In this document: one piece after another, positions 24,484 to 43,544 of the stretch
How positions within the stretch are numbered: position 1 is the stretch's first letter
Layout: every line of letters begins with the position of its first letter
Source of the DNA: Pseudomonas sp. EpS/L25
GTDB taxonomy: Bacteria; Pseudomonadota; Gammaproteobacteria; Pseudomonadales; Pseudomonadaceae
Assembly: GCF_001512295.1 (NCBI RefSeq)
Contig: NZ_LNUP01000002.1
Location: 62,001-126,000 of the forward strand
DNA length: 64,000 nt
Direction of reading: 5' to 3'
Translations under genes and position numbers: made by a program
The notes under the pieces: generated by a model
The model's database searches: none
The model's input: only the letters and a program-made list of their open reading frames with translations
What the model was told of the DNA's origin: nothing

Positions 24484-27400
24484 GTGTTGAGGATTCCAGG
24501 CTATAGCTGCAAGGCACGGGTGAGCGAGAGTCGCCATGCGCTGATCTACCGCGGAACCCGCCTGGACGACGGACAACCGGTGATTCTCAAGCTGCTGGCC
24601 GCCGACTACCCCACGCCCCAGGCCCAGGCCGGACTGCGCCAAGAGTTCGAGCTGACTCGTCGGGCCAGCGGCAGTGGGGCGGTGAGCGCGGCGCTGGATC
24701 TGGTCGACTACGACGGGCGCCAGGTGCTGGTGCTCGAGGACATCGGCGGTACCGATCTCGCCGCATTGCTGGGCCGGGGGCCGCTGACCCTGGACGATTT
24801 CTTCGACTGGGCGTTGGCTATCGTCCGCGCGCTGGCGCGGTTGCACCGGTTGCGCATCGCCCACAATGACCTCAATCCGCGCAACATCGTCTGCAATGGC
24901 GACACCGGTACGCTGCGCCTCACCGACCTGGGGATCGCCACCGAGTTCGGCGCCGTAGGCAGCGGCGAGATCCGCCTGGAAGGCTCCCTGACCTACCTCG
25001 CGCCCGAGCAGAGCGGGCGGACCGGGCGGCACCAGGACTACCGCAGCGACTTCTACGCCCTCGGCGTGACCTTCTACGAGATGCTCTGCGGCGAGCCGCC
25101 GTTCCGTGCCCAGGATCCCCTCGAACTGGTGCATGCGCACCTGGCCATGCGTCCGCCTGCCTTGGCGGAGCGGGTGCCGGGCATCCCCGCCGGGCTGGTG
25201 GCGCTGGTTGAGAAACTGATGGCCAAGGCCGCGGAGGAGCGCTACCAGGGCTGCTTCGGCATCCTGCGCGATCTGCAGCGTTGCCAGGCGAATTGGCAGG
25301 CCGGGCGCGACGAGGCGTTCGTGCCGGGCAGCGAGGATCCGCCCGCGCGTCTGGTGATGTCGCGATCGTTGCAAGGCCGGGCCAGCGCCATGCGCCTGCT
25401 CGACGAAGCTCTCGCGCGCGTGACCCTCGGCCAGGTCGAGGCGGTGTTCGTCAGGGGCGCCTCCGGGGTCGGCAAGTCGGCCCTGGTGCAGGCTTTCGTG
25501 CGTCGCCAGGGCGAGCGGATGGTCGTGGTCCACGGCAAGTTCGAGGCCCTGGGCCGCGCGGTGCCCTACAGCGCGCTGCGCCAGGCGGTGAAAGAACTGG
25601 TCGAGCTGGGCCAGACGCTGGGCGCGGACTTCGCCGAACGCCTGCTCGGCCTACTGGACGGCAATGCCGTCGTCCTCACCGATGTATCGCCCGAATTGGT
25701 CGCCTGGCTGGGGCCCCAGCCGCCGGTGGCCGAGTTGTCGCCCCAGCAGGCCGAGCAGCGCTTCGACGATGCCGTGAGTGCCCTGTTGCTGGCCTTCGCC
25801 ACCCACGACCGGCCCCTGCTGCTGTGGCTGGATGACCTGCAGTGGGCGGACGCCGCCTCGCTGCGGCTGATCGAGCGCCTGCTGTCACGCCGGCATCCCG
25901 GTTCCCAACTGCTGGTGGCGACCCTCCGCGACGAGCACCTGGCCGGCAGCCCGCTGGAGCGCCTGGTGACGACGGCGCCGATTCGCAACCTGACGCTGGG
26001 GCCGCTGTCCCGCGAGGAAATCGAGCGGCTGATCGCCGAGATCCTGCCGGCCCCGGCCGCCGACCAGGCCGCGCTGGCCGGCCTCTGCCTGGACAAGACC
26101 CTGGGCAATCCCTTCTTCATCGAACAGTTGCTGCGCAGCCTGCAACAGGAAGGCCTGCTGGAATTCGATGGCGAGCACGGCCAGTGGCACTGGGAGCTGC
26201 CGCGCCTGCAGGCACTGGACGTCTATGACAACGTGGTCGACTTCATGGTCGGCAAGCTCCAGGACCTGCCGCCGGCCACCTCGCACTTGCTGCAGTGGGC
26301 CGCCTGCCTGGGCACGGTGTTCTCTTGCGAGCGACTCGCCGCGCTGATCGGCGAGGCACCCGCGACGATCCATCGCCTGTGCCAGATGCTGGTCCAGGAA
26401 GGCCTGCTCACCGAAGCCGGGGCGGGGGACGACGGCGCTCCCACCTTCTTCAGTTTCCCCCACGATCAGGTGCGCCATGCCGCCCATTCGCTGCTGGCGC
26501 CCGACGAGCGCGAGCGCGTCCATCTGCGGGCGGGCCAGCTGTACCTCGCCGAAGGCGGGAAGGCGCGGCTGGAGGCGGTATCGCACCTCAACCTGGCGCT
26601 GGCGCTGATCGAGACGCCGGCCGAACGCCTGCAACTGCTGGAGCTCAATCTGGAGGCCGCGCGCCGGACGCGGCAGGCCAATGCCTACCCGGCGGCGCTG
26701 GAGTTCCTGCGCACCGCAGTGACGCTGATCGACGAAACCGCCTGGAGCGGACGCCATGTGCTGCTGTTCCAGCTGCATCGCGAGTGGGCGGAACTCACCC
26801 ATCTCTGTGGCGACGCCCTGGAGGCGCTGCGGATCTGCGAGCTGTTGCTGCCACGGGCGCGGACGTCCCTCGAGGAAGCGGGCGTGCGCGCCCTGCAGAT
26901 CGATCTGTTCAGCGGGCTGGGACGTTTCGCCGAGGCCCTGGCGGTGGGCGTGGCGGGCGTCCGGGCGCTGGACGAGCCCTGGCCGGAAGACCCGGCGGAC
27001 ATCAACCAGGCCATCGGCGCGGACAGTGCCGAGGTCGACGCCTGGCTCGCCGCGCGGTCGCCGGCGGCGCTGCTCGACCTGCCGACCATGGATGATCCGC
27101 GTGCCCAGCTGTTGATCCGGCTGCTGGGGCTGCTGTGGGGACCGGCGATCAACGTCGACCTGCCCATGAGCCTGCTGGCGGTGATGCGCATCGTCAAGCT
27201 GTCGATCCAGTACGGCAACGGCGACCTCTCGCCCTTCGGCTATGCCAACTATGGCTCGCTGCTGTCGGCCTTCCACGGGCGCTACGAGCTGGGCTACCAG
27301 GTCGGGCGCCTGGCCGTCGACCTGGTGGACCGCACCGGCAATCTGCCGCTCAAGTGCAAGGTCTACACCATGTTCGCGGTGACCAACAGCCCCTGGTCGA

Positions 27401-30400
27401 GTCCCATCGCGGACAACGTGGCGCTGTTGCGCGAGGCCCTGGCGGCCGGCCAGCGCACCGGCGAGATCATCTTCACCGCCTACAGCGCCTTCCATATCCT
27501 CAAGCACCTGCAGCATGCCGGGGCGCCGCTGGATGACATCCTCGGTGAAGCCGGAGGGATCGAGCCGATCCTGCTGGGGATCGGCGATCCCAATACCCTG
27601 GAGATCTTCACCATCCTGCGCCAGTCGCTGCGCCTGCTGCAGGGGCTGACGCCGAGCCAGGAGCGTTGGGACGAGGAGGGCCAGGACGAAGCGGCGCTGG
27701 TGCGCCAGATGCAGGACAGCGGCCATGTGCTCTGCCTGAACTACTACGATTTCAACAAGATGCAGGCGGCCTTCCTGTTCCGCCGGCTGCCGGCCGCGCG
27801 GCAGCATGCCGAGGCCATGGAGGCCTCGCTGGCGGCCACCTTCGGCTGGTTCAGCATTGCCGAGCATGCCTTCTATCAGGCGCTGATCCTGCTGGCCGGG
27901 GACGAGCTGACGGAGGCGGAGCGGGCCAAGGTCCAGGCCGCCCGCGAACGGTTGGCCGGTTGGGCGACGCACTGCCCGGAGAACTTCGCCCACAAGCGCG
28001 ACCTGGTGGACGCCGAGCTGGCGCGCCAGGCCGGTCGCACCGAGACGGCCATGGACCTCTACGAGCAGGCCCTGGAGTCGGCGCGGCTGCATGGCTTCCG
28101 CCAGGGCGCGGCGCTGGCCGAGGAGCTCTACGGCCGCTTCTGGCTGGCGCAAGGCCGCTCGCGTCTTGCCCGGGCCTATCTGCAGGACGCCCAGCGCAGC
28201 TACCTGCACTGGGGCGCGGCGGCCAAGGCGGCGGCCCTGGAGAACGAGTTCCCCCGCTGGCTGCGCGTCGCGGAAACCCGTTCCCTGACGGTGCAGCGCA
28301 CCCATGACCAGAGCACCGGCGAGATGATGCGCCTGGACTGGCTGTCGGTGCTCAAGTCGCTGCAGACCATTTCCAACGAACTGGCACTGGACCAGTTGCT
28401 GGCGCGGATGATGCGCATCATCCTCGAGGAAGGCGGGGCCCAGCACGGGCTGTTGCTGTTGCCGGAAGGTGGACGCTGGCTGGTGCAGGCCTCGGGGTGC
28501 AGCGGCGCGGCCGAGCCCAAGGTGCTGCAGGGGCTGCCTGTGGCGCTGGGCGAGCAGGATCTCGGCGAAAGCCTGGTGCCGCTCACCCTGGTCTCCCACG
28601 TCATCCGTAACCGGGAAGCGGTCATCCTCGACGATGCCGCCAGTGCCGGACGTTTCGTCCGCGACAGCTACATCCGCGCCCGGCGGCCGCGCTCCATCTG
28701 CTGCATGCCGATACTGCGCCAGGGCCGCCTGATCGGCGTGCTCTATCTGGAAAACAACCTGCTGGCCCAGGCCTTCACTCCGGGTCGGCTGCAGGTGCTG
28801 AGCATCCTCGCCACCCAGGCGGCGATTTCCCTGGAGCATGCGCAGATCTACGAGACCCTCGAACAGCGCGTCGTCGAGCGAACCCTCGAACTGGACCAGG
28901 CGCGCATCCGTGCCGAGGAAGCGGCCACGGCCAAGTCGATGTTCCTGGCCACCATGAGTCATGAGATCCGTACCCCGCTCAATGCCGTGATCGGCCTCAG
29001 TCGTCTGACCCTGGGCACCAGGCTGTCCGGCGAGCAGCGCGGCCATGTCGGCAAGATCCTCGATTCCGGCGAAAGCCTGCTGGGCGTCATCAACGACGTC
29101 CTCGACTATTCCCGCAACGAAGCCGGCGGCACCCGGCTCGAGCAACTCGGCTTCAACCTGGGCAAGGTGCTCGAGCGCACCCTGAACCTTTGCGCCCTGA
29201 AGGCCCACGAGAAGGGTGTGGAGCTGGTGCTGGACTGCGGGCTCGACATCCCCCTGCAATTGGAGGGCGATCCGCTACGACTGCAGCAGGTATTGGTCAA
29301 CCTGCTGAGCAACGCGGTCAAGTTCACCGAGGCTGGGCATGTGCTGATCCGCGTCGGCGCGACGCGCGACGGCGAGCGGGTAGGGCTCAGAATCGCCGTC
29401 GAGGACACCGGCATCGGCATGACCGAGGCGCAACTGGGCCAGCTGTTCCAGCCCTTTACCCAGGCGGACGGCTCCATCAGTCGCCGCTATGGCGGCACCG
29501 GCCTGGGCCTGGCCATCTCGCGCCAGCTCACCGAACTCATGGGCGGTTCCCTGGAGGTCCGCAGCGAGGCAGGACGCGGGTCCTGCTTCACCCTGCAACT
29601 GACCCTGCCGGTGACCGGCGAGCCGGAGCGGCTGCCCAGCCAGCTGGTGCGCCGGGTGCTGCTGGTGGACGACCATGCCCTGGCGCGGCGCATCCTCGCC
29701 CAGCGCCTGCGTGAACTGGGCATGCAGGTCCGCGAAGCGGAATCCGCGGCCCAGGCGCTGGCCGCCGTGACGACCGGGAACGAGGCGTTCGAGCTGGCCA
29801 TCGTCGACTGGCGCCTGGGCGCCGATGACGGCCTGGTGCTGGCGCGGCGCCTGCGCGAGCGCCAGCCAGGGCTGCCCCTGGCCATGCTGGCCTCGCCCTA
29901 CGAGGCGGAAGAGGTGCGCAGCCTGGGCGAGGACATCGTCGGCCTGGAGCTGCTCGACAAGCCGATCACCGCGCCCATGCCCCAGCGGCTGCTGGCCGGC
30001 CTCGGTCTGGCGCCCGCCATGGCGCCGACGCTGGGGCAGACGGCGATCGACCTGCAGGGCATCCGCCTGCTGCTGGTGGACGACAACGCCATCAATCGCC
30101 AGGTGGTGATCGGCTTCCTGCAGGACACCGGCATCCACATCGAGGTGGCGGAAGATGGCCAGGCGGCGCTGGATCGCCTGGAACACGAGGCCTATGACCT
30201 GGTGCTGATGGATGTGCACATGCCGCGCCTGGATGGGCTCTCGGCCACCCGCCTGCTGCGCGACCGTCCGGCGCTGGCGCGGCTGCCGGTGATCGCCATG
30301 ACCGCCAACGGCCTGCCGGGGGACCGGGAGCGCTGCCTGGAGGCCGGCATGAACGATCACCTGGTCAAGCCGCTCGATCCCAACGAGTTGTTCCGCATCA

Positions 30401-31083
30401 TCGCCGCCTGGGCCAGTCTCGAACAGCTGGAGCGCGCCGAGCGCAAGGCGGTGGCGGAAGTCAACGAGGCGAGCCTGCTGACGCGGGCGCGCGGCACCGC
30501 GGCGCTGGAGCCGGAAACCGCGTTGCGCCTGCTGCGCGGCAACACCGAACTCTATGAGCAACTGGTCCGCGATTTCCGCGTCCAGCAGGCCGATCTGCCC
30601 GGCCGTATCGCCGCCTGGCGCGCCGCGGACGACGTGGCTGGTCTCTTCGAATGCGCCCATGCGCTGCAGTCCTCCGCCGCCTACGTTGGCGCCACCGCCC
30701 TGCAGGAAGCGGCCCAGCGACTGACCAAGCGCATTCGCCTGGCCCAGCCCCTCGCTGAGGAGATTCGCCTGTTGCACGCCGAGGCCGAGCGCTGCCTGGC
30801 GTCGCTGGACGAGTTGCTGGTCGAGGACGAACCATCGCAATCGGGCGCGTCCGAGGACGGGCTGGAAGCCATGCTCGAGCGCCTGGTCGAGCTGTTGCGG
30901 GCCTCGGATTTCGCCGCCGAGGGAGTGCTGGACAGACTCGTCGAGCGCTGCGCGGGCACCCCCCAGGGCGCCGATGTGACGCGTATCCGCGAATGGGTGG
31001 ATGACGTCGAATTCGAACACGCCGCCGATGCCACCCTCGATCTGCTGCGCCGGGTACGGCAGATCGATCAGCGGTCGGGCTGA
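24484..31083 (+). CDS. Giant Ser/Thr-kinase-like / AAA ATPase / GAF hybrid histidine kinase (2199 aa)
   Basis: Domains in order: a protein-kinase-like domain (~1-270; lysine 36 in VILKLL, catalytic loop HNDLNPRN at ~127, DLG at 148-150); an AAA/NACHT-like predicted ATPase (Walker A GASGVGKS 325-332; WLDDLQWAD with D450-D451); a long helical TPR-like region (~650-1270); GAF (~1290-1460); HisKA ([11 protein letters not shown]1493) and HATPase ([25 protein letters not shown]); REC1 (D1775); REC2 ([12 protein letters not shown]1910); and a C-terminal Hpt ([13 protein letters not shown]2059). The Hpt has Q and S where K and G are usual. No membrane helix is seen, so it is cytoplasmic. It starts at GTG 24484 behind GAGG. 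It is followed after 6 nt by a REC-GGDEF gene, the likely output. Confidence 0.9.
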
Positions 31084-31089
31084 GGGCCG

Positions 31090-32004
31090 ATGGAGGTAAG
31101 GGGTAGCGATCTGCCGCTGATTCTGATCGTCGACGATCAGAAGAGCAATCTGCGAGTCCTCGCCGACCTGCTGCGCGACGAGGCGCGCATCATGCTGGCC
31201 AAGAGCGGGGTGCAGGCGCTGACCAAGGCAGCCCGCGAGCATCCGGACCTCATCCTGCTGGACGTGGTGATGCCAGGCATCGACGGCTTGCAGCTGATCC
31301 AACTGTTCAAGCGGCGGGCCGAGACCAGCGCCATCCCGGTCATCTTCATCACCGCGGCCAACGACCTCAATCGCGAGGTCGAGTGCTTCGAGCTGGGCGC
31401 CAGCGATTTCATCCAGAAGCCTTTCAATCCCCTCGCCGTGCTGGCACGGGTCCGTCTGCACCTGCAACTGGCCCGCCAGCGCCGCCTGCTCGAAGAGCTG
31501 GCGCACCTGGACCCCCTGACGTCGGTGGGCAACCGGCGGCGTTTCGACGAGCAACTGGCGGTGGAGTGGCAACTGGCGGTCAACCGCGGGCGGCCCCTCG
31601 CCATCGCCATGCTCGATATCGATTACTTCAAGCAGTACAACGACACCTACGGCCATGCCGCGGGCGACCAGGCACTGTCACGGGTGGCCCAGGTGCTGGA
31701 GCAGCGCATCCGTGAGCGCGACTGCCTGGCCCGCTATGGTGGCGAGGAATTCGTCCTGCTGCTGCCGGGTGCCTCCCAGGCTGCTGCCGAGGCGGTGCTG
31801 GAGCGCTGTCGGCAGGGGATCGCCGAGTTGCGCATCGCCCATCCGCTGGCGGACGATCGTCTCTGGCTGACGATGAGCATGGGTCTGGCCTGCTGCCATC
31901 CGACCCCGGAACAGGAACCGCACTGGCTGCTCAAGTCGGCGGATTCCCTGCTTTATCAGGCCAAGGCAGCCGGGCGCAACCGGCTGGTCAGCGCCGGTCT
32001 CTAG
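31090..32004 (+). CDS. REC-GGDEF response regulator (diguanylate cyclase)
   Basis: 304 aa. The receiver domain (LILIVDDQKSNLRVL; phosphoacceptor in LILLDVVMPGIDG; FITAANDL; FIQKPF) is followed from ~135 by a GGDEF domain with intact active site RYGGEEFVLL, substrate motif DIDYFKQYND and an inhibitory I-site RERD five residues upstream. It should make c-di-GMP when phosphorylated. It starts 6 nt after the giant hybrid kinase ends, so the kinase's Hpt is the probable phosphodonor. Its TAG stop is shared with the TA target duplication and first base of the MITE downstream. No RNA or other output domain is present. Confidence 0.92.
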   Translation: MEVRGSDLPLILIVDDQKSNLRVLADLLRDEARIMLAKSGVQALTKAAREHPDLILLDVVMPGIDGLQLIQLFKRRAETSAIPVIFITAANDLNREVECFELGASDFIQKPFNPLAVLARVRLHLQLARQRRLLEELAHLDPLTSVGNRRRFDEQLAVEWQLAVNRGRPLAIAMLDIDYFKQYNDTYGHAAGDQALSRVAQVLEQRIRERDCLARYGGEEFVLLLPGASQAAAEAVLERCRQGIAELRIAHPLADDRLWLTMSMGLACCHPTPEQEPHWLLKSADSLLYQAKAAGRNRLVSAGL

Positions 32005-32190: not shown

Positions 32191-33213
32191 TCAGGCGTCG
32201 CCGGCGGGCCCGGCCAGCAATTCCACCCGGTTGCGGCCGCTGGCCTTGGCCTGGTACAGCGCCTGGTCGGTGCGTTCGAGGAAGGCTTCGTGGTCGTCAC
32301 CGCTCTGCGGCTGGATGCTGCCGACGCCGATGGAGATGGTCACTACCCCGATCTCGCTGCCGCTGTGGGCCACCTGCAGGCGCTCGACCCCCGCCCGGCA
32401 GGCTTCGGCGACCTTGCGCGCACCCTCGGCGTCGGTGTCCGGCAGCACCATGGCGAATTCCTCGCCACCATAGCGGGCCACCAGGTCCGCCGGGCGCTTG
32501 AGCTGTTCGGTCAGCACCGCGGCCACCTTCTTCAGGCAGAGATCGCCGCTCAGGTGACCGTAGGTGTCGTTGTAGCGCTTGAAGTGGTCGACGTCGCAGA
32601 GCAGCAGGGCCAGCGGCTGGCGACTGCGGCGGGCGCGCAGCCATTCGCCTTCGTAGGTCTGGTCGAAGTGCCGTCGGTTGTTGATGCCGGTGAGGCTGTC
32701 GATGGCGACCAGTTTCTGCAGTTGGATATTGGCCTCGGCGAGTTGCCGCTGGCTTTCGCGCAGGAAGCGGAAGGCCTCGTCGCGTTGGGCGCGCAGGACG
32801 TAGGCTTCGGAGTGGTAGCGGACCCGGGCCAGCAGCTCCAGCTTGTCAGGCAGCTTGACCAGGTAGTCGTTGGCGCCGGTGGCGAAGCTCTGCGCCTTGA
32901 CCTGGGGGTCTTCCTTGGAGGAGAGCACCACGATGGGCACGTCGCGCAGCGTCGGGTCCGCGCGGAAGCGCCGGACGGTTTCCAGGCCGTCGATCTCGGG
33001 CATGATCAGGTCCTGCAGCACCACGGTGGGCTTGAGTTGCAGCGCCATGTTCACTGCCTGATGGGCATCCAGGCAGTAATGCAGCTCGATGTCGGGCTGA
33101 TCCGCGATCATCCGCCGCACCGCCTCGATGATGATCAACTGATCGTCCACCAGCAGCAGCCGTACCTTGGGGGCGGTCAGGTTGTCCAGGGCTCCACCCT
33201 CATGCGTGGCCAT
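32191..33213 (-). CDS. wspR: WspR diguanylate cyclase response regulator
   Basis: 340 aa. Receiver (LLLVDDQLIIIEAVRRM; D in VVLQDLIMPEIDG; VVLSSKED), a coiled-coil stalk (~145-180, QRDEAFRFLRESQRQLAEAN) and a GGDEF domain with active RYGGEEFAMVLP, CDVDHFKRYND and I-site RPAD. In the Wsp system, phosphorylation by WspE drives clustering and c-di-GMP production, promoting surface attachment and biofilm. Last gene of the wsp operon, 93 nt after wspF. Intact domains and length. Confidence 0.95.
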   Translation of the reverse strand: MATHEGGALDNLTAPKVRLLLVDDQLIIIEAVRRMIADQPDIELHYCLDAHQAVNMALQLKPTVVLQDLIMPEIDGLETVRRFRADPTLRDVPIVVLSSKEDPQVKAQSFATGANDYLVKLPDKLELLARVRYHSEAYVLRAQRDEAFRFLRESQRQLAEANIQLQKLVAIDSLTGINNRRHFDQTYEGEWLRARRSRQPLALLLCDVDHFKRYNDTYGHLSGDLCLKKVAAVLTEQLKRPADLVARYGGEEFAMVLPDTDAEGARKVAEACRAGVERLQVAHSGSEIGVVTISIGVGSIQPQSGDDHEAFLERTDQALYQAKASGRNRVELLAGPAGDA

Positions 33214-33306
33214 TACTGCGTCCTTCTGCGAGCGGGGCGAGAACCCCGCATCTCAACTTGGCCATTCCCTGCCGCTGCGCCGGCCAACGCTCCTGTTGGC
33301 GGCCTG

Positions 33307-34344
33307 TCATGTTCTGCCCCCCGGGGGCGAGGCGAAGCGTCGCTGCAGCCAGGCACCGATCTGCGCGGGACTGAGCACGCGCTCCGCGGCGCCCATTCTA
33401 ACCGCAGCTGCGGGCATGCCGTATACGGCACAGCTGGCTTCATCCTGCGCCAGGGTCGGGCAACCGCTCTGGCGCAGGGCATACAGCCCGTTCGCGCCAT
33501 CGCGCCCCATGCCGGTGAGGAGGATGCCCAGCGCCTGGCGGCCCAGGTGGGGGTGGCCGGCAAGGCTGGCGAAGAACACATCCACCGATGGCCGATAGGG
33601 ATAGTCGAGCGGCTCGTCGGTGTAGGCGAAGCGACCCCGGCCGTCCAACAGCAGGTGATCGTCGCCCAGGGCCACGCAGACCTGGCCGGGCTGCGGCTGG
33701 GCGCCGGCGGCGGCGGCCGTGACCGGCCAGGCGATCTGGCTGCCGAGCCAGGCGATGAAGCTGGGGGCGAAGCGTCGGTCGATATGCTGTACCAGGACCA
33801 CGCTGGCGGCGCCGGTCGGGGCCCAGCCCTCGAACAGGCTCACCAGGGCGGCCGGGCCGCCGGTGGAGGCGCCGATGGCCACCAGGGCACCCGGCGTTTC
33901 GGTGGTCGTGCCGACCGGCGCGGTCGCTTGCGGCAGTGCCGGTTGGGTGGGACGTTCGGGCAGCCGCACCAGGGGTTCGATACGGCCGATCTTGCGCAGC
34001 AGGGCGCCACCGTCGGCCCCGCCGGCGAGGGCCGGGGTGGCGGTCACGTCGAGGGCACCGGCGCCCATGGCGCGGAACACCCCTTCGCAATCGTCCGGGG
34101 TGGCGGTGACCACGAGGATGGCGCAGGGCGACTGCGCCATGATCCGGCGGGTCGCCTCGATCCCGTCCAGGCGCGGCATCTGCAGGTCCATGAGAATGAG
34201 ATCGGGCCGATCCTCGGCGCAGCGTGCCACGGCTTCCTCGCCGTCGTGGGCGATCCAGGCCACCGTATGACGCCCGTCGCTGGCCAGCAGGCGGCGCAGG
34301 GCTTCGGTGGCCAGCAGCAGGTCGTTGACGATGGCGATTCTCAT
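33307..34344 (-). CDS. wspF: WspF methylesterase (CheB-type)
   Basis: 345 aa. Receiver domain (IVNDLLLATEALRRLL; D in LILMDLQMPRLDG), a linker, and a CheB methylesterase domain with the serine in AIGASTGGPAAL, histidine in VLVQHIDRRF and the LLTGMGRDGANG loop with the catalytic aspartate. It demethylates WspA and so damps Wsp output; loss of WspF is known to cause wrinkly, high c-di-GMP variants. The catalytic residues appear intact, so the pathway should be adjustable. Overlaps wspE by ATGA (34341-34344). Confidence 0.94.
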   Translation of the reverse strand: MRIAIVNDLLLATEALRRLLASDGRHTVAWIAHDGEEAVARCAEDRPDLILMDLQMPRLDGIEATRRIMAQSPCAILVVTATPDDCEGVFRAMGAGALDVTATPALAGGADGGALLRKIGRIEPLVRLPERPTQPALPQATAPVGTTTETPGALVAIGASTGGPAALVSLFEGWAPTGAASVVLVQHIDRRFAPSFIAWLGSQIAWPVTAAAAGAQPQPGQVCVALGDDHLLLDGRGRFAYTDEPLDYPYRPSVDVFFASLAGHPHLGRQALGILLTGMGRDGANGLYALRQSGCPTLAQDEASCAVYGMPAAAVRMGAAERVLSPAQIGAWLQRRFASPPGGRT

Positions 34345-36530
34345 GGGGCTCCGATGAGGTCCTGCACGGCGGTGATCAGGGCGTCATCATGGAAGCTGCC
34401 CTTGGTCAGATAGTAATCGGCACCGGCCTGCATCCCCTTGAGCCGATCTTCCGGACGGTCCTTGTAGGAGACGATCATCACCGGCAGGGCGTGCAGTCGC
34501 GGATCGCGACGCACCAGCTCCACCAGTTCGATGCCGTTCATGCGCGGCATGTCGATGTCCGACAGCAGCATGTCGAAGTCGCCGGCGCGCACGGCATTCC
34601 AGCCGTCCATGCCGTCCACCGCCACTGCCACTTCGTAGCCCTGGCTTTCCAGCAGCTTGCGTTCCATCTCGCGCACCGTGAGGGAGTCGTCCACCACCAG
34701 GATGCGTTTGACCCGCCGGGTAGCGGCGACCTGGCTGCCCTGCACCTGGCGCAGCCGGCCTTCGCCCAGCAGGCGCTCGATGCCGGTCAGCAGGTCGGCG
34801 ACGTCCAGCAGCAGCACCGGGCTGCCATCGTCGAGCAGGGCCCCGGCGGTCACCGAGCGCAGCTTGCCGAAGATGTCGTCCAGCGGCTTGAGCGCCAGGC
34901 CCTGCTCGCCGCGCAAGCGATCCACCACCAGGCCGTAGCGCCCTTCGCCGCCGCCGATCACCAATACCGCCAGGTCGTCGCTGGCCGGGCCGGCGTCGAG
35001 TTCGAGCAATTGGTGCGCAGCCACCAGGCCCAGGCGATCCTCGCCGAGCAGGAAGAAGGCCTTGCCCTCCAGGGAATGTACCTCGCCTGCGGCCAGGCGC
35101 AGCACCCGTTCGATGCGGGTGACCGGCAGGGCGTAGGCCTCGCCGGCGATGTCGACGATGAGCGCGCGGACGATGGAGCGGCTGACCGGCACCAGCAGGT
35201 GGGTGCTGAAGCCTTCACCCGGACGGGTTTCCAGGCGCACCTCGCCGTCCAGGGCGCGGATGGCATCGGCCACCACGTCCAGGCCCACGCCGCGTCCGGA
35301 CAGCTCGGTGACCGTCTCCTTGAGGCTGAAGCCGGGCAACAGCAGGAATTCCAGCAACTCGGCCGGGCTCAGGGCGGCAGCGACCGGGGCGGGGCTCAGG
35401 CGGCGGGCGATCACCGCGGCCCGGATGCGCTCCAGGTCCAGGCCACGGCCGTCGTCATACAGGCTCACCTGCAGGCGACCGGCGACGTGGCGGGCTTCGA
35501 GGCGGATCTGGCCACTTTCCGGCTTGCCCAGGGCACGGCGTTCGGCCGGGGTTTCCAGGCCGTGATCCAGGGCGTTGCGCAGCAGGTGGTTGAGCGGACT
35601 CTCCAGGCGCGCGAGCACCTCGCGGTCGATCAGGGTGTCGGCGCCGTCCACCTGCAGGGTGGCGTCCTTGTCGAGGCTCCTGGCCAGGTCGCGTACCAGC
35701 CGCGGAAAGCCCTGCACGGCGTCGCGCAGCGGGCGCATCCGCACGCCGAGCACCTCGTCCAGCAGGCCCTGGCAGACGCCGAGCAGGCGGCGCTCGTAGG
35801 CTTCCAGCGCCTGCAGCTGCTGCTGATAGCGATCGAGCAGTCCCTCCTGGCGTTGGCGCAGTTCGTTGCTCGCCGCCGCTGCCTGGCCGAACAGCGCCTG
35901 CAGTTCGCCGCGATAGCCCTGGAAGCCCTGCACCAGGCCGTGCAGGCCGAGGCCCATCACCCGGGCCTCGCTGGTGAGGGCAAGAATCTGGTTGAAGCGG
36001 CCGCTGTCGACCCGCAGGGGGTCCCGGGCGCGCTCGGCCTCGGGGGGCTCTTCCGCAGCGGCAGCGATGCTCGGTGCCGCCGCGCTGGGCGGCGTTGCCG
36101 CCGGGCTCGGCGCTACGTCGGCGTCGGCGGCACTCAGGGCCTGGGCCAGGGCGCGCTGGGCATCGCGCTGTTCGAGCTGCCAGCGTTGACTGGCGGCTTC
36201 GTCCAGGCGGCTGACCTCGCCGAGGACATCGACGCAGCGGAACAGCCGGTCGAGATCCGCGGCGCCCAGGCGGCGCTGGCCGGCCTGCACGGCCACCAGG
36301 CAATCCTCCATGGCATGGGCCAGTTCGACCAGGCCATCCAGGTCGACGATGCGGGCGGCGCCCTTGATCGAGTGGGCCGCGCGCATCATGGGCTCGATCA
36401 CGGCGATATCGGCGGGATCGCGCTCCAGGCGCAGCAGACCGGCGTCCAGGGCCTGCAGGTGGCTCTGCACCTCGCTGGCGAAGAGGTCGTACAGCGACAT
36501 CTCGCGCACGTCGCGCGGGGGCTGGCTCAT
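34341..36530 (-). CDS. wspE: WspE CheA-type hybrid histidine kinase
   Basis: 729 aa. N-terminal Hpt with AAHSIKGAARI (His ~52), an Ala/Pro-rich linker, dimerisation and ATP-binding domains (HLLRNALDHGLETPAE, DDGRGLDLERI, SGRGVGLDVV), a CheW-like regulatory domain, and a C-terminal receiver (ILVVDDSLTVREMERKLL; D in LLSDIDMPRMNG). It takes the signal from WspA through WspB/D and phosphorylates WspR and WspF. Its start overlaps wspD (ATGA at 36527-36530). Confidence 0.95.
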   Translation of the reverse strand: MSQPPRDVREMSLYDLFASEVQSHLQALDAGLLRLERDPADIAVIEPMMRAAHSIKGAARIVDLDGLVELAHAMEDCLVAVQAGQRRLGAADLDRLFRCVDVLGEVSRLDEAASQRWQLEQRDAQRALAQALSAADADVAPSPAATPPSAAAPSIAAAAEEPPEAERARDPLRVDSGRFNQILALTSEARVMGLGLHGLVQGFQGYRGELQALFGQAAAASNELRQRQEGLLDRYQQQLQALEAYERRLLGVCQGLLDEVLGVRMRPLRDAVQGFPRLVRDLARSLDKDATLQVDGADTLIDREVLARLESPLNHLLRNALDHGLETPAERRALGKPESGQIRLEARHVAGRLQVSLYDDGRGLDLERIRAAVIARRLSPAPVAAALSPAELLEFLLLPGFSLKETVTELSGRGVGLDVVADAIRALDGEVRLETRPGEGFSTHLLVPVSRSIVRALIVDIAGEAYALPVTRIERVLRLAAGEVHSLEGKAFFLLGEDRLGLVAAHQLLELDAGPASDDLAVLVIGGGEGRYGLVVDRLRGEQGLALKPLDDIFGKLRSVTAGALLDDGSPVLLLDVADLLTGIERLLGEGRLRQVQGSQVAATRRVKRILVVDDSLTVREMERKLLESQGYEVAVAVDGMDGWNAVRAGDFDMLLSDIDMPRMNGIELVELVRRDPRLHALPVMIVSYKDRPEDRLKGMQAGADYYLTKGSFHDDALITAVQDLIGAP

Positions 36531-37054
36531 CGCAGGGCCTCTTCCAGGGCGCGCTCCAGGCGCATCGGCTCGATCAGGCCGACCTGGTACGGCCCTTCGC
36601 GATAGACCCCGCCAAGATAACTCAGCAGCTCGCCACCAAGGGTTGCTGGCGGCGGCTGCAACTCGGCCGGCGCATAGCGTTGCAGCCCCAGCACCTCGTC
36701 GACCTGGATCGCCCAGTCACGGCGGCCGATACGGATCAGCAGCAGGCGCGGGAAGCCCTGGGGGCGGCTGGCGGGGGCCACGGCGAGCAGCAGGTCCAGG
36801 GCGATGCAGGGATACAGCTGGCCACGTACCGGCACGATGCCGTGCAGCAGCGGCGAGCGGCGATGAGGCACCCGGTGGGCGGCGGTGGGCTCGGTGGCGG
36901 TGACCAGGCAACTGCCCGGCAGCCCCAGCCATTCCCCGCCCAGGCGAAATACCAGGGCGCTGAGCGAGCGCGTCTGAGCATCGACCACGGGCGCCGCATA
37001 GCGCTCGGTCCAGGCAGCCCGTTCGGCGTCGGCCAGTTCGCGATCCAGGCTCAT
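36527..37054 (-). CDS. wspD: WspD CheW-type coupling protein
   Basis: 175 aa. A CheW-like SH3-type fold (LVFRLGGEWLGLP, LLHGIVPVRGQLYPCIALD, VDEVLGLQRY) couples the receptor to WspE. The start is ATG 37054 (MSLDRELADAE), which overlaps the wspC stop by ATGA; a longer frame upstream is Arg-rich and lies inside wspC. It appears shorter than some WspD homologues, though the CheW core is complete. Its placement between wspC and wspE is canonical. Confidence 0.92.
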   Translation of the reverse strand: MSLDRELADAERAAWTERYAAPVVDAQTRSLSALVFRLGGEWLGLPGSCLVTATEPTAAHRVPHRRSPLLHGIVPVRGQLYPCIALDLLLAVAPASRPQGFPRLLLIRIGRRDWAIQVDEVLGLQRYAPAELQPPPATLGGELLSYLGGVYREGPYQVGLIEPMRLERALEEALR

Positions 37055-38295
37055 GCCTGATCTCCTGCACCGGGCTGGATGCGTGCCGCGCGTTCGCGCA
37101 GGCGGCCGGCTTCGTCGAGGCGTCCGGCGCGCTCGCAGATCAGCGCCAGCCGGCACAGCGCGGGGTAATGGGCGGGTTCCAGGTAGAGGGCCTGGCGCAG
37201 CGCCCGCTCGGCCTCGGCGGCGCGTTCGTCGGGCAGGATCAGGGCGAGCAGGAAGTGAGCACCGGCCTGGCTGCGATCCTGTTCGAGCAGGCTGCGCAGC
37301 AGGGCCTCGGCTGCGTCGCCACGGCCGGCATCGGCCAGCCGCTGCGCCTGCTCCAAGGCCGCCGGTGGCGCGGGCGTCGCGGGGGTGTCGACGGGCAAGG
37401 CGCGACTGCGTGGCGGCGGCGCCGGTGCACGGGGTGCCGTGGATGGACGGGGTGCGGCCTTGCGCCGTGGCGGGGCGGCGACGGTCGGGGAGCGGGCGGC
37501 ATCCGCTACCTGTGCCTGGCGCTTGACCAGTGCCGAGGCATGGGCCACGCCCAGGCTGGCGAAGCCGTGGCGCATGGCGCTGACCATTTCCGAGCTGCCT
37601 ACGCAGAGCAGGCCGTCGTCGTGCAGCAGGGCGGCCAGGTGGCTCAGGGCGCGGCCCTGGGTCTGGTCGTCGAAATAGATCAGCAGGTTACGGCAGAGCA
37701 CCACATCGAAGAGCGCGCCGTCGCGCAGGCTGCCGAGCTGGAGGATGTTGCCCTGGCGGAAGCGCACCTGGTTGCGCACCGACTCGGCCAGGCGATGCCG
37801 ATCACCTTCGGCGCTGAAGTAGCGCTCGCGGAAGCCCAGGTCCTTGGCGCGGAAGGAGTTGCGGCCGTAGAGACCGCGCCTGGCCCGCTCCAGCGAGGGT
37901 TCGTTGATGTCCACGGCGGTCACCTGGAAGGCGCTGGCCGGCAGGCCGGCATCGAACAGCGCCATGGCCAGGGTGTAGGGTTCCTCGCCGGTGGAGCAGG
38001 GCAGGCTGAGCAGCCGCACGGGGCGAGCGCTGCGCGCGTGGCGCTCCTGGGCGAAGCGGGCCGCGTGGGTGATGGCCTGGGGATCGCGGAAGAACCAGGT
38101 CTCCGGGATGACCAGCAGGTCCAGCAGGTCGGCGAATTCGGTCTCGTCGTCGAGGATGCGCGCCATGTAGAGCTCCGCCTCGCTCTCCTGGCGCTCGCGC
38201 AGCCGCTGGCGAATGGCGCGCCCCAGCATGTCATCGGCGATGGCGAGGCCCGTGCGGGAACGCACCAGGGGCGCCAGGCGCGGATCGAGTTTCAC
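37051..38295 (-). CDS. wspC: WspC CheR-type methyltransferase with TPR tail
   Basis: 414 aa. The CheR domain (~1-265) includes IPETWFFRDPQ, the SAM site LLSLPCSTGEEPYTLAMAL, the acidic VTAVDINEPSLERAR and DVVLCRNLLIYFD. A Pro/Ala-rich linker (~275-315) and TPR repeats (~315-405, AEALLRSLLEQDRSQAGAHF) follow, as in WspC. It methylates WspA using S-adenosylmethionine and opposes WspF. ATGA overlaps join it to wspB and wspD. Confidence 0.94.
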   Translation of the reverse strand: MKLDPRLAPLVRSRTGLAIADDMLGRAIRQRLRERQESEAELYMARILDDETEFADLLDLLVIPETWFFRDPQAITHAARFAQERHARSARPVRLLSLPCSTGEEPYTLAMALFDAGLPASAFQVTAVDINEPSLERARRGLYGRNSFRAKDLGFRERYFSAEGDRHRLAESVRNQVRFRQGNILQLGSLRDGALFDVVLCRNLLIYFDDQTQGRALSHLAALLHDDGLLCVGSSEMVSAMRHGFASLGVAHASALVKRQAQVADAARSPTVAAPPRRKAAPRPSTAPRAPAPPPRSRALPVDTPATPAPPAALEQAQRLADAGRGDAAEALLRSLLEQDRSQAGAHFLLALILPDERAAEAERALRQALYLEPAHYPALCRLALICERAGRLDEAGRLRERAARIQPGAGDQA

Positions 38296-38759
38296 GCGGC
38301 CTCCTGGAACAGCAGCGCGGCCAGGGTGGGCGAGAGCAGTCGTGGCAGGTCGAGCCAGAGCCAGAGACCCTCGGGGGTTTCCAGGACCTCGCCCAACCAG
38401 GGGTAGTCGGGCAGCGGGATACCGGCCGGCCGTGGCGGGGTGGCCGTCACCCGGCGCACGCCGGCGACGCCTTCCACCACCAGGCCGAGCGGCCGGCTAT
38501 CGCCACCCGGTGTGGACAGTAGATAGTCCACCAGCAGGATGCGGGTGTCCTGCCGCGGCCGGGCGCTCCGTCCGCCACTCATGGCGGTGATGTCCACCAC
38601 CGGCACCGCCGCGCCATGCAGGTTCATCAATCCGGCGACACCAGCAGGCGCCGCGGGAAAGCGGGTGAGCTGGAGATAGGGCAGCACCTGGCGGATGACC
38701 GCCGTCGGCAGGGCCGCCGCCGCCTCGGCCAGCTGGAAGGCCAGGATCTGCATCGTCAA
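38292..38759 (-). CDS. wspB: WspB CheW-type coupling protein
   Basis: 155 aa. CheW fold: MQILAFQLAEAAAALPTAVI, RQVLPYLQLTRFPAAPAGVA, GLMNLHGAAVPVVDI and RILLVDYLLSTPGG. It links WspA to WspE at the membrane. Starts in the wspA stop (ATGA 38756-38759) and ends in the wspC start, so it is tightly coupled. Length is usual for the family. Confidence 0.93.
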   Translation of the reverse strand: MTMQILAFQLAEAAAALPTAVIRQVLPYLQLTRFPAAPAGVAGLMNLHGAAVPVVDITAMSGGRSARPRQDTRILLVDYLLSTPGGDSRPLGLVVEGVAGVRRVTATPPRPAGIPLPDYPWLGEVLETPEGLWLWLDLPRLLSPTLAALLFQEAA

Positions 38760-40561
38760 CGGTTGACCGAGAAGGTGGCGACGCTGCTCTGCAGGTCCTG
38801 CGCGGCCTGCTGCAGGTACTGGACCGCCTCGCTGGTGGCCTTGAGCGCCTCGGTGGTCTGCTGGGTGCTGTCGTTGAGCTGGGTGATGGTCTCGGCGATC
38901 TGGACGGCACCCAGCGCCTGGGACTGCATGCCCTCCAGCACGATGTCGAAACGCGCCGGCAGTTTCTGTACGTCCTCGATGACCTCGGCCAACTGGTCGC
39001 TGACGCTCGCCACCTCCTGCACGCTCCGGCGGATCTCCTCGGAGAACTTGTCCATGCCCATGACGCTGGCGGAAACCGCGGAGTTCATGTCCTTGAGCAT
39101 CTGCTCGATGTCGTCGGTGGCAGCGGTGGTCTGGTCCGAGAGCCGGCGGATCTCGGTGGCCACCACCGAGAAGCCGCGACCCGCCTCACCGGCCTTTTCC
39201 GCTTCGATGGCGGCATTGAGCGACAGCAGGTTGGTCTGGTCGGCCACCTTGGTGATGGTGGTCAACACCTTGTTGATGTGACTGGATTTTTCCGACAGTG
39301 CCGCGAGCTTGGCGTTGATGGAATCGGTCGCCGCGACCATGCGCTGCATGGTCGCGTCCATGCTCGCCAGGTTGCTGCGCGCCTGCAGTGCGCCGTGGGT
39401 GGTTTCGTCGGCCACCTGCACGGCTTCTTCCATGGTCTTGAGCAGGGCATTGGCGTTGGCGGCGATCTCCCGCGTGGTGCTCAGGACTTCCACACTGGTC
39501 TGCGCCTGTTCGATGCTGGTGGCTTCCTGCTGGCGGGACGAGGCCGCGATCTCGGTGGTGGAGGAGGTCACCTGGATACCGGCGCGCTGGACCTTGGTGA
39601 GCATGCCGCGCAGGTCCTCGATCATCTTGCCCAGGCCGCGGGCCAGCTGGCCGATGGCATCGTCGCCACTGACGCGGGTCCGCCCGGTGAGATCACCGGC
39701 GGCGGCCTTGTTGACCAGCTCGAGCAGGTCATCGACGTCGTCGCGCAGGCGCTGCATCAACGCCTGCTCCCGGCTGTGGTCATCCTGGATCTGCTGGGCC
39801 ATCTGGTTGAAGGCCAGGCCCACCTGGCCCAGTTCGTCGTGCCCCCGTACCTGGACGCGCGCGCCACCCTCGCCAGCGGAAATCCGCGCCACGGTATCGG
39901 TCAGGCCGCGAATCGAGCGCAGCAGGCCATGGGACAGCACCCAGGCGATGAGCGCGGCGAGCAGTATGCACAGGGCGCCGCCGGCCAGCAGGGTCCAGGT
40001 GAGGCGGCTGCGGGTGCTCTCGGTGTGCCCGGCCCGTTGCGCCGTCAGCTTGCGCTCTTCGTCTGCGATGCTCTGGATCTGCTGGCGGATGCCGGCGACC
40101 TGGGTGTTCAGCGCATCGATCAGGGGCTCGTTGGCCAGCTGGGTCGGGCTGAGGTTACCGGTCTCGCGCAGACGCAGCAGCGTTTCGAAGGTATTGCGCC
40201 GCCAGTCGTCGAGACTCGCCGCCAGCCGAATGAAGCGCTGTTGCTGCTCGGGGTTGTCCTGGGTCAGTTGCTGGGGCGTGCGTACGGCGTTGGCCAGCTG
40301 CGGCAGGGCCTGACGCGCCGTCTCGGCGTCGGCGGGCGTGCCGGAATACCAGTAGTTACGCAGCTTGGCGCGGGTCTCGAGGAGGTTGTTGTCCAGCGCC
40401 GTGACCGCCAGTAGGACCTCGGCGGTGTGGCGATCCCAGCGATTGGCGTCGACCAGGCTCTGCAGGGCGGCGTAGGTCTGCCAGAGCAACAGCACGACCA
40501 GGGCGATGATGGCGGCGAAGCCGGCGAAGAGTTTGTTCTGGATGCGAATGTTATCGAGCAT
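38756..40561 (-). CDS. wspA: WspA methyl-accepting surface-sensing receptor
   Basis: 601 aa. N-terminal helix (LFAGFAAIIALVVLLLW), a periplasmic helical sensor (~33-205), a second helix (TLLAGGALCILLAALIAWVL), HAMP (LLRSIRGLTDTVARI and a second HAMP-like stretch near 290), then a long coiled-coil signalling domain with the hairpin tip around NLLSLNAAIEAEKAGEAGRG. The start is set at ATG 40561 (MLDNIRIQNKL); a GTG at 40612 would add 17 unlikely residues, and neither has a strong ribosome-binding site. It is the first gene of the wsp operon and is thought to respond to surface contact or envelope stress. Confidence 0.94.
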   Translation of the reverse strand: MLDNIRIQNKLFAGFAAIIALVVLLLWQTYAALQSLVDANRWDRHTAEVLLAVTALDNNLLETRAKLRNYWYSGTPADAETARQALPQLANAVRTPQQLTQDNPEQQQRFIRLAASLDDWRRNTFETLLRLRETGNLSPTQLANEPLIDALNTQVAGIRQQIQSIADEERKLTAQRAGHTESTRSRLTWTLLAGGALCILLAALIAWVLSHGLLRSIRGLTDTVARISAGEGGARVQVRGHDELGQVGLAFNQMAQQIQDDHSREQALMQRLRDDVDDLLELVNKAAAGDLTGRTRVSGDDAIGQLARGLGKMIEDLRGMLTKVQRAGIQVTSSTTEIAASSRQQEATSIEQAQTSVEVLSTTREIAANANALLKTMEEAVQVADETTHGALQARSNLASMDATMQRMVAATDSINAKLAALSEKSSHINKVLTTITKVADQTNLLSLNAAIEAEKAGEAGRGFSVVATEIRRLSDQTTAATDDIEQMLKDMNSAVSASVMGMDKFSEEIRRSVQEVASVSDQLAEVIEDVQKLPARFDIVLEGMQSQALGAVQIAETITQLNDSTQQTTEALKATSEAVQYLQQAAQDLQSSVATFSVNR

Positions 40562-40723
40562 GGGCACCGGCACGCGCGGACGGAAAGGGGAGGAGCGAAC
40601 CCAAGGGAACACCCTGACTATCCGATAAAAGTAGCACGGTCATGCATTTATGTGAGTTGCGACGCAATCGGCCTTGGCCGGAAAGGCTGGAACGCCAGGC
40701 GGACATCCGCACCTAGGTAGGGC

Positions 40724-41617: not shown

Positions 41618-42160
41618 ATGTTGGACGAACACCTGGCCCTCAGGCTCAAGGCGCTCCGGCTGGAGCACGGACTCTCGCTGGAACAGCTCGCCGGTCGTAG
41701 TGGCGTGAGCCGGGCCACCCTGTCGCGGCTGGAGAATGCCGAGGTCAGCCCGACCACGGCGGTCCTCGGCCAACTCTGCACGGCCTATGGCCTGACCCTC
41801 ACCCGGCTGCTGCACAGTGTGGAAGCCAGCTTTCCGGCGCAGGTACCCCGGTCGGCACAGCAACTCTGGGCCGATCCCGTCCTGGCGTTCACCCGCCGCT
41901 CCGTATCGCCACCGTCCCGGGCACTCGCGGGGGAGGTGATCGAGAGCCAGCTGGGGCCGGGCGTGGACATCCGCTACGAGAGTTCGCCCCGTCCAGGCCT
42001 CGAACACCATTTGCTGATGCTCGACGGTGAGCTGCAACTCTGGGTGGAGGGGCAGCACCATCGCCTTGGCGTGGGTGATTGCCTGCGTTATCGGCTCTGG
42101 GGCAGCAGCCGTTTTCTCAGTGGCAGTGCCGGTGCCCGCTATCTGCTATTTCTTGTCTGA
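41618..42160 (+). CDS. XRE-family regulator with cupin domain
   Basis: 180 aa. The N-terminal helix-turn-helix (LRLKALRLEHGLSLEQLAGR, then GVSRATLSRLENAEVSPTTA, ~8-45) is followed by a C-terminal cupin sensor (~105-178: LEHHLLMLDGELQLWVEG, VGDCLRYRLWG). Such proteins usually control a neighbouring transport or amino-acid metabolism gene. GGGAGAGAG precedes the ATG. The next gene (GNAT-serine acetyltransferase) begins 10 nt after its stop, so they form an operon and the acetyltransferase is its likely target. Confidence 0.88.
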   Translation: MLDEHLALRLKALRLEHGLSLEQLAGRSGVSRATLSRLENAEVSPTTAVLGQLCTAYGLTLTRLLHSVEASFPAQVPRSAQQLWADPVLAFTRRSVSPPSRALAGEVIESQLGPGVDIRYESSPRPGLEHHLLMLDGELQLWVEGQHHRLGVGDCLRYRLWGSSRFLSGSAGARYLLFLV

Positions 42161-42170
42161 GAGGTGCCCG

Positions 42171-43544
42171 ATGTCAGCCAGGCTTTCCATCGAGCAACTC
42201 GATGCTGCACGCTTCATCGCACGGCTGGAGGATTTCCAGCGACTGCTCGCCGCCTGCGTGGCCGAGGGGGCGAGCATCGGCTTCATCCTGCCTCTGGCCG
42301 CGGCCGTCAATAGAGGCTTCTGGCAGGACGGCGTGGCACCAGGTATCGCGCGCGGCGCGCGGCTGCTGTTCGCCGCTCTCCACGAGGGACGGGTGGTCGG
42401 CAGTGTCCAGCTGGTGCTCGACACCCCGGCCAATCAGCCGCATCGAGCCGAGGTGGCCAAGCTGCTGGTCCATCCCGAGCATCGCCGCCAGGGGATCGCC
42501 CGACAACTGATGCTCAGGCTGGAAGACGCCGCCCGGGCTCATGGTCGGGAACTCCTCACCCTGGATACCCGCAGCGACGACCACGCCGAGCCGCTCTATC
42601 TGTCCCTGGGCTACGAGGTAGCGGGCAGGATTCCCGGCTATGCCCTGGATGCCCGGCAGCCCGAGCGACGCGACAGCACCACGTTGATGTACAAGACGTT
42701 ACCCGCCGTGGCCGCTAAGCTTGGCGCCCCCTTTTCCCTAGGAACGCCGCCTGCCATGCCTCCTCGCTCCGCTTCCGAACTCTGGCAACTCCTGCGCGCC
42801 CAGGCCGAGGCGGGGTGCCACGAGGCACCGGCCCTGGCCGACGGCCTGGTGCGGGCGCTGCTGCAGCCCGATGATCTCGCCAGTGCCCTGGCGCGACGTT
42901 GCGCCGATGCCCTGGCGGAGGATCCGCGGCAGGCCGAGCAACTCGCCCGGCGCTTCAGGGCGTTGCATGCGGAACTGCCGGACCTGCTGTTGGCCGCCTG
43001 CGCCGACCTGGAGGCGGTACTGGCACGGGATCCGGCCTATGCCAGTCTGTTGGAAATCTTCCTCTTCTCCAAGGGCTTCCTGACCTTGCAGGCCCATCGC
43101 CTGGGCCATGCCCTCTGGGCCTGCGGCGAACGCCTCCTGGCCCTGCATCTGCAGGCGCGTTGCAACCGCCTGCTGGCCATCGACATCCATCCCGCCGCGC
43201 AGCTGGGCCGCGGCATCATGCTCGACCATGGCACCGGTATCGTCATCGGCGAGACCGCGGTGGTGGAAGACGACGTGTCCATCCTCCAGCAGGTGACCCT
43301 GGGCGGCACCGGCAAGGAGCAGGGCGATCGCCACCCCAAGGTACGCAAGGGCGTGATGATCGGCGCCGGGGCGAAGATCCTCGGCAACCTGGAGATCGGC
43401 GAAGGCGCCAAGGTTGGCGCCGGCAGCGTGGTGCTGCATCACGTGGCGCCCCACACCACGGTGGTGGGTATCCCCGCCCGGCCGGTGGGGCGCCCGCGGG
43501 ACGCCCATCCGGCCGAGAGCATGGATCAGTCCTTCGACGACTGA
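42171..43544 (+). CDS. GNAT acetyltransferase fused to serine O-acetyltransferase
   Basis: 457 aa in one frame. Residues ~1-180 are a GNAT domain (VVGSVQLVLDTPAN, VAKLLVHPEHRRQGIARQLM, the acetyl-CoA pyrophosphate loop, and YLSLGYEVAGRIPGY). A linker rich in Ala/Pro ends at residue 195. Residues 196-457 are a complete CysE-type serine acetyltransferase with hexapeptide repeats (DIHPAAQLGRGIMLDHGTG, IGETAVVEDDVSILQQ, GDRHPKVRKGVMIGAGAK). An internal ATG at 42756 with AGGA 12 nt upstream could also give a free CysE. Start ATG 42171 follows GAGAGG. The frame overlaps the convergent Nudix gene by 19 bp. Control by the XRE-cupin protein is inferred. Confidence 0.82.
   Translation: MSARLSIEQLDAARFIARLEDFQRLLAACVAEGASIGFILPLAAAVNRGFWQDGVAPGIARGARLLFAALHEGRVVGSVQLVLDTPANQPHRAEVAKLLVHPEHRRQGIARQLMLRLEDAARAHGRELLTLDTRSDDHAEPLYLSLGYEVAGRIPGYALDARQPERRDSTTLMYKTLPAVAAKLGAPFSLGTPPAMPPRSASELWQLLRAQAEAGCHEAPALADGLVRALLQPDDLASALARRCADALAEDPRQAEQLARRFRALHAELPDLLLAACADLEAVLARDPAYASLLEIFLFSKGFLTLQAHRLGHALWACGERLLALHLQARCNRLLAIDIHPAAQLGRGIMLDHGTGIVIGETAVVEDDVSILQQVTLGGTGKEQGDRHPKVRKGVMIGAGAKILGNLEIGEGAKVGAGSVVLHHVAPHTTVVGIPARPVGRPRDAHPAESMDQSFDD

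Follow-up and report, generated by a model that had tools for sequence, protein, structure and literature searches.

We know of no output for most bacterial STK-AAA-GAF-histidine kinases, and a 2199-aa protein of this kind, which begins with a Ser/Thr kinase (STK) domain, is encoded in the window (the whole 64,000-nucleotide stretch of Pseudomonas sp. EpS/L25 DNA analysed here), raising the question of what such a protein controls and which of its phosphotransfer steps work. A preliminary description had read it as one cytoplasmic chain of STK-like, ATPase, TPR-like, GAF and phosphorelay modules linked to a dedicated GGDEF protein, and had noted a kinase motif HND, a magnesium motif DLG and an Hpt domain lacking KG (HALQSS). 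These motifs read as described, and both the domains listed and the proposed connection to a REC-GGDEF protein stood, whereas the doubt about catalysis that had been drawn from the motifs found little support in the sequence evidence below.

A domain search placed Pkinase, AAA_16, GAF, HisKA, HATPase_c, two Response_reg domains and Hpt above the Pfam gathering score within a single open reading frame (Table 1), which had a strong codon-position bias (GC3 of 0.88). The exception was the TPR-like region, for which Pfam made no call in the 2199-aa protein itself; orthologue L053 and also L063 were matched by PF25503 (TPR_CHK1) over the corresponding region. Because a hydropathy scan with the neighbouring chemoreceptor as reference gave no peak comparable to the WspA transmembrane segment, the protein is probably cytoplasmic, as had been proposed. 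By its nearest named relatives, the host belongs near P. oryzihabitans within Pseudomonas; it carries the full-length kinase gene in single copy. Among 13 genus genomes compared, the window genome counted in, 11 carried the kinase gene, as a single open frame in 10 of these; in G001 (L052:10399-17048) an apparent frame break detaches the STK from the remainder, leaving overlapping open frames of 305 and 2147 aa.

Table 1 Features of the kinase-cyclase locus (window positions; aa, residue numbers in the encoded protein)
Feature	Position	Strand	Evidence
STK-AAA_16-TPR-GAF-HisKA-HATPase-REC1-REC2-Hpt dual/hybrid kinase, 2199 aa	24484..31083	+	ORF, Pfam
Ser/Thr kinase domain, aa 20-254; K36, E54, D129, N134, D148	24541..25245	+	Pfam, alignment, predicted PknB-like fold
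AAA_16/STAND-type ATPase, aa 296-478; Walker A K331, Walker B D450-D451	25369..25917	+	Pfam, alignment
TPR-like helical region, CHK1-like, aa about 479-1300	25918..28383	+	PF25503 in orthologues; alignment conservation
GAF, aa 1302-1450	28387..28833	+	Pfam
HisKA + HATPase_c, aa 1483-1708; phospho-His H1493, N-box N1610	28930..29607	+	Pfam (HisKA 1483-1548, HATPase_c 1595-1708), alignment
REC1, aa about 1727-1840; D1775; MP motif lost in genus	29662..30003	+	Pfam Response_reg, alignment
REC2, aa 1863-1973; D1910, T1940, K1962	30070..30402	+	Pfam Response_reg, alignment
Hpt, aa 2026-2100; H2059 within HALQSS	30559..30783	+	Pfam, predicted fold
REC-GGDEF partner, 304 aa; D58, GGEEF, I-site R208/D211	31090..32004	+	Pfam, alignment
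Second REC-GGDEF, WspR-like, end of convergent Wsp-type operon, outside kinase unit	32191..33213	-	Pfam, alignment

Only 6 nt separate the kinase stop codon from the ATG of the partner gene, whose product retains the phospho-Asp and a GG[DE]EF motif and has PleD and WspR as its closest solved relatives. Scans recognised no promoter or terminator for the pair, so the case for co-transcription is made by this gap and the conserved gene order; an Rfam search gave no useful lead. The next gene encoded REC-GGDEF in 6 of the 7 STK lineages with a full relay (genus g1, G004, G298, Marinifaba aquimaris, G442 and G404), a small sample in which two lineages belong to one genus. The seventh, G790 (L177), has a full relay and no neighbouring REC-GGDEF, and Marinomonas (L066) has an HK-REC-Hpt arrangement lacking both REC1 and a neighbouring REC-GGDEF. 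Within the genus, a partner orthologue of at least 62% identity was found in all 11 kinase-carrying genomes and in neither of the 2 non-carriers. In about 17 loci, spanning Pseudomonadales, other Gammaproteobacteria, Oxalobacteraceae and delta-type bacteria, the same STK-AAA-GAF front was fused directly to GGDEF or GGDEF-EAL.

Phylogenetic trees were consistent with this association. The direct-GGDEF and relay+REC-GGDEF states each clustered, with at least two changes needed on supported branches. Since the relay halves formed one clade (support 100/100) and a one-clade topology was rejected for the front halves (AU p 0.011), we abandoned the simple view that the whole proteins share a single-clade history. 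The relay+REC-GGDEF cassette seems to move as a unit and to have become attached to two distinct fronts, a point of moderate strength given the long branches in the front tree. The same genome holds, on contig 16 (L183:3290-9171), a paralogous CHASE-PAS-HisKA-REC-REC-Hpt kinase of CdgK/CdgS-like layout, whose gene overlaps by 4 nt a REC-GGDEF gene 46% identical to the window partner, so that the output cassette is generic and the difference lies in the front. Synteny, co-occurrence, direct fusions and trees thus support the GGDEF link that had been noted, and the c-di-GMP link is, judged on sequence, the strongest part of our interpretation.

The residues needed for a relay are in place. H1493, N1610, D1775, D1910 and H2059 were conserved from the window genome to Marinifaba (Alteromonadales), at a relay identity of 37%, and the order HisKA-HATPase-REC-REC-Hpt with H, D, D and H intact is that of the CdgK/CdgS type. 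The Hpt motif, starting after the residue next to H2059, reads LQSS in the window genome; genus-mates have LQAT or MQST, G004 has LRSA, and more distant members have LKSS or LKSN. Across aligned relatives the KG site therefore varies (Q, R or K) next to a His that does not change, and the window Hpt has Q where most have K. Among solved Hpt domains, the predicted fold was closest to 3myf, from a Shewanella hybrid kinase (TMt 0.86, E 0.035), and it also matched the BarA Hpt. With the K and G positions varying, the His invariant and the relay residues intact, we rejected the absence of KG as a sign of inactivity.

In Anabaena, CdgK (GAF-HisKA-HATPase-REC1-REC2-Hpt) is co-transcribed with the REC-GGDEF gene CdgS, and mutants and, in part, in vitro phosphotransfer traced the route from His to the REC2 Asp, the Hpt His and the REC Asp, bypassing a dispensable REC1 (PMC9927289). 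By analogy, REC1 (D1775) of the 2199-aa protein is probably regulatory or dispensable, which fits the loss of its MP motif in the genus. The sequences themselves show which domains are present, that the catalytic residues are intact, that the two genes are adjacent and co-occur, and that an association with GGDEF recurs; on these grounds we consider it likely that the kinase and partner genes form one cytoplasmic signalling unit whose relay drives the c-di-GMP synthesis of the partner. We infer the signal, STK activity, phosphotransfer order and cyclase activation as follows: the STK-STAND-type ATPase-TPR-GAF front, of HstK/CHK1 type, would sense an internal signal and control the HisKA/HATPase kinase; phosphate would then pass, as on the CdgK/CdgS route, from H1493 to D1910 of REC2, to H2059 of Hpt and to D58 of the REC-GGDEF protein, which when phosphorylated would dimerise and make c-di-GMP.

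The HND and DLG motifs had cast doubt on whether the STK domain is catalytic. In a kinase-domain alignment of 18 relatives and the query (19 sequences), for which relatives were picked from the kinase-intact group and a wider survey of residue loss was done apart, K36, E54, H127, D129, N134 and D148 were invariant. The middle residue of HxD is usually K in this kinase family (HKD, not HRD), so the N of HND is merely another substitution, and DLG retains the metal (Mg)-binding Asp, D148. Structure prediction returned a kinase fold (pLDDT 89) matching PknB at TM 0.80/0.88. With the catalytic Asp and Asn kept, a PknB-like fold predicted and HKD usual in the family, we rejected a degenerate kinase as the meaning of HND and DLG, and the STK domain is probably catalytically competent in the window lineage. 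The real pseudokinases are not members of this group; they are its sister proteins, which carry GFG and lack the Lys and which come from Bradyrhizobium, from Burkholderia, Paraburkholderia and Cupriavidus, and from other Pseudomonas. Among them are Pseudomonas relatives (L056, L058-L062) with the same front, GFG pseudokinases and PAS-HisKA-type ends, most of which have a REC gene immediately upstream.

We nevertheless weighed a non-catalytic STK scaffold in the window protein too, with an ATPase-gated histidine kinase as the sole route of output. Glycines are absent from the ATP-binding loop ahead of YRG, and the residue survey showed that, for most output types, many members have lost kinase residues; this reading is possible but doubtful, considering that the loop is similarly glycine-poor in the aligned orthologues and that five catalytic residues are invariant in the 19 sequences, a set chosen among kinase-intact relatives.

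The Ser/Thr kinase could conversely be the main output, acting on separate protein targets, with the relay and REC-GGDEF only one branch or a feedback. The same survey found the five catalytic residues kept in the genus, G004 and G298, which together with the PknB-like fold favours such a role, and their loss from sister families suggests that retention reflects selection. We consider this unlikely, since Marinifaba, G442 and G404 have lost the catalytic residues and retained the relay and REC-GGDEF, and since the genes seen next to it in the window include neither a phosphatase nor an obvious substrate. Given this persistence, the wiring does not depend on kinase activity, which in these three lineages is not needed for the cyclase link; inactivity of the kinase, which the preliminary description had proposed as a refutation, is thus the wrong test.

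It also seems improbable that an active STK, the STAND-type ATPase and the His-Asp phosphorelay set c-di-GMP in one molecule, with the STK gating the cyclase directly by phosphorylating either its REC-GGDEF protein or the relay. The retention of all catalytic residues in the window lineage makes a separate or modulating role likely, and an active STK more likely modulates the sensor than passes phosphate to the cyclase. Intact and decayed kinase domains with the same cyclase partner provide a natural experiment on the role of the Ser/Thr kinase half.

Downstream lies a complete Wsp-type operon (32191-40612, minus strand) encoding an MCP with CHASE3, a CheW-like protein (38292-38759), CheR-TPR, CheW, CheA-REC, CheB and REC-GGDEF; it is convergent with the kinase unit, which uses HisKA rather than a CheA-type kinase with MCP, CheW, CheR and CheB. 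Beyond it, 42027-43544 (plus strand) encodes a serine acetyltransferase that, by Pfam, appears to carry a GNAT acetyltransferase domain as an N-terminal fusion. That the WspE-like CheA-REC mainly phosphorylates the partner cyclase, the giant kinase acting on WspR or on neither, is very unlikely: the Wsp operon is only 187 bp off, tail to tail, and ends in its own REC-GGDEF, yet this WspR is just 36% identical to the partner, Wsp-type REC genes do not flank the pair in G298, Marinifaba and others, and G004 retains the pair with no Wsp operon beside it, on which ground we rejected the operon as the kinase's partner system.

For the window lineage and its relatives, the phosphorelay-driven cyclase reading offers one testable output, c-di-GMP, reached through a phosphorelay to REC-GGDEF or by direct GGDEF fusion. 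A literature search covering few subscription journals found no description in which a CdgK-type relay with its own dedicated REC-GGDEF follows an STK-AAA-TPR-GAF front; the wiring, which also occurs in other bacteria, seems undescribed though its parts are known. STK-GAF-histidine kinases (HstK, cbSTKIII) and an STK-TPR-GGDEF protein had been described by 2005-2007 (PMC1262709, PMC2176072). The latter, the 1826-aa STYK-TPR-GGDEF protein of Clostridium thermocellum (PMC1262709), likewise couples a Ser/Thr kinase-like front to c-di-GMP synthesis but is a direct fusion without a phosphorelay. In Pseudomonas putida, the cyclase activity of the response regulator CfcR requires the multisensor hybrid kinase CfcA; CfcA has a CHASE3/GAF front and CfcR is a GGDEF/EAL response regulator, unlike the window pair (PMC6849547).

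Anabaena CdgK/CdgS shares the GAF-HisKA-HATPase-REC1-REC2-Hpt order and the adjacent REC-GGDEF gene with the window pair. CdgK has a membrane CHASE-PAS front, unlike the STK-AAA-TPR front of the 2199-aa protein with no TM peak; by analogy the 2199-aa protein would function like CdgK, yet it is not classed as a CdgK orthologue. In Nostoc, a search for a CdgK orthologue gave two sizes of hybrid kinase, 1331 and 1435 aa. Candida albicans Chk1, a fungal hybrid kinase with S_TKc, AAA_16, GAF, HisK and REC in one chain, ends HisK-ATPase-REC (PMC9069115), as against two REC domains, Hpt and a cyclase partner here; the front is shared, and Pfam TPR_CHK1 matches orthologues of the 2199-aa protein. The cyanobacterial HstK/cbSTKIII dual Ser/Thr-His kinases also combine STK, GAF and HisKA-HATPase in one chain, with an STK-AAA-TPR-GAF front about 31-35% identical; most cyanobacterial members found terminate at the histidine kinase, whereas the 2199-aa protein continues into a REC-REC-Hpt relay within the chain and its gene is followed by a dedicated REC-GGDEF gene. 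Such kinases go under the RefSeq name 'trifunctional serine/threonine-protein kinase/ATP-binding protein/sensor histidine kinase', and relatives of the 2199-aa protein carry RefSeq names with the same opening, up to 'ATP-binding'. With STK-AAA_16-TPR-like-GAF-HisKA-HATPase in one soluble chain and the STK Lys, Glu, HxD Asp, Asn and DxG Asp present as K36, E54, D129, N134 and D148, the 2199-aa protein is a variant of the HstK/CHK1 dual kinases, its front half being of a kind already known.
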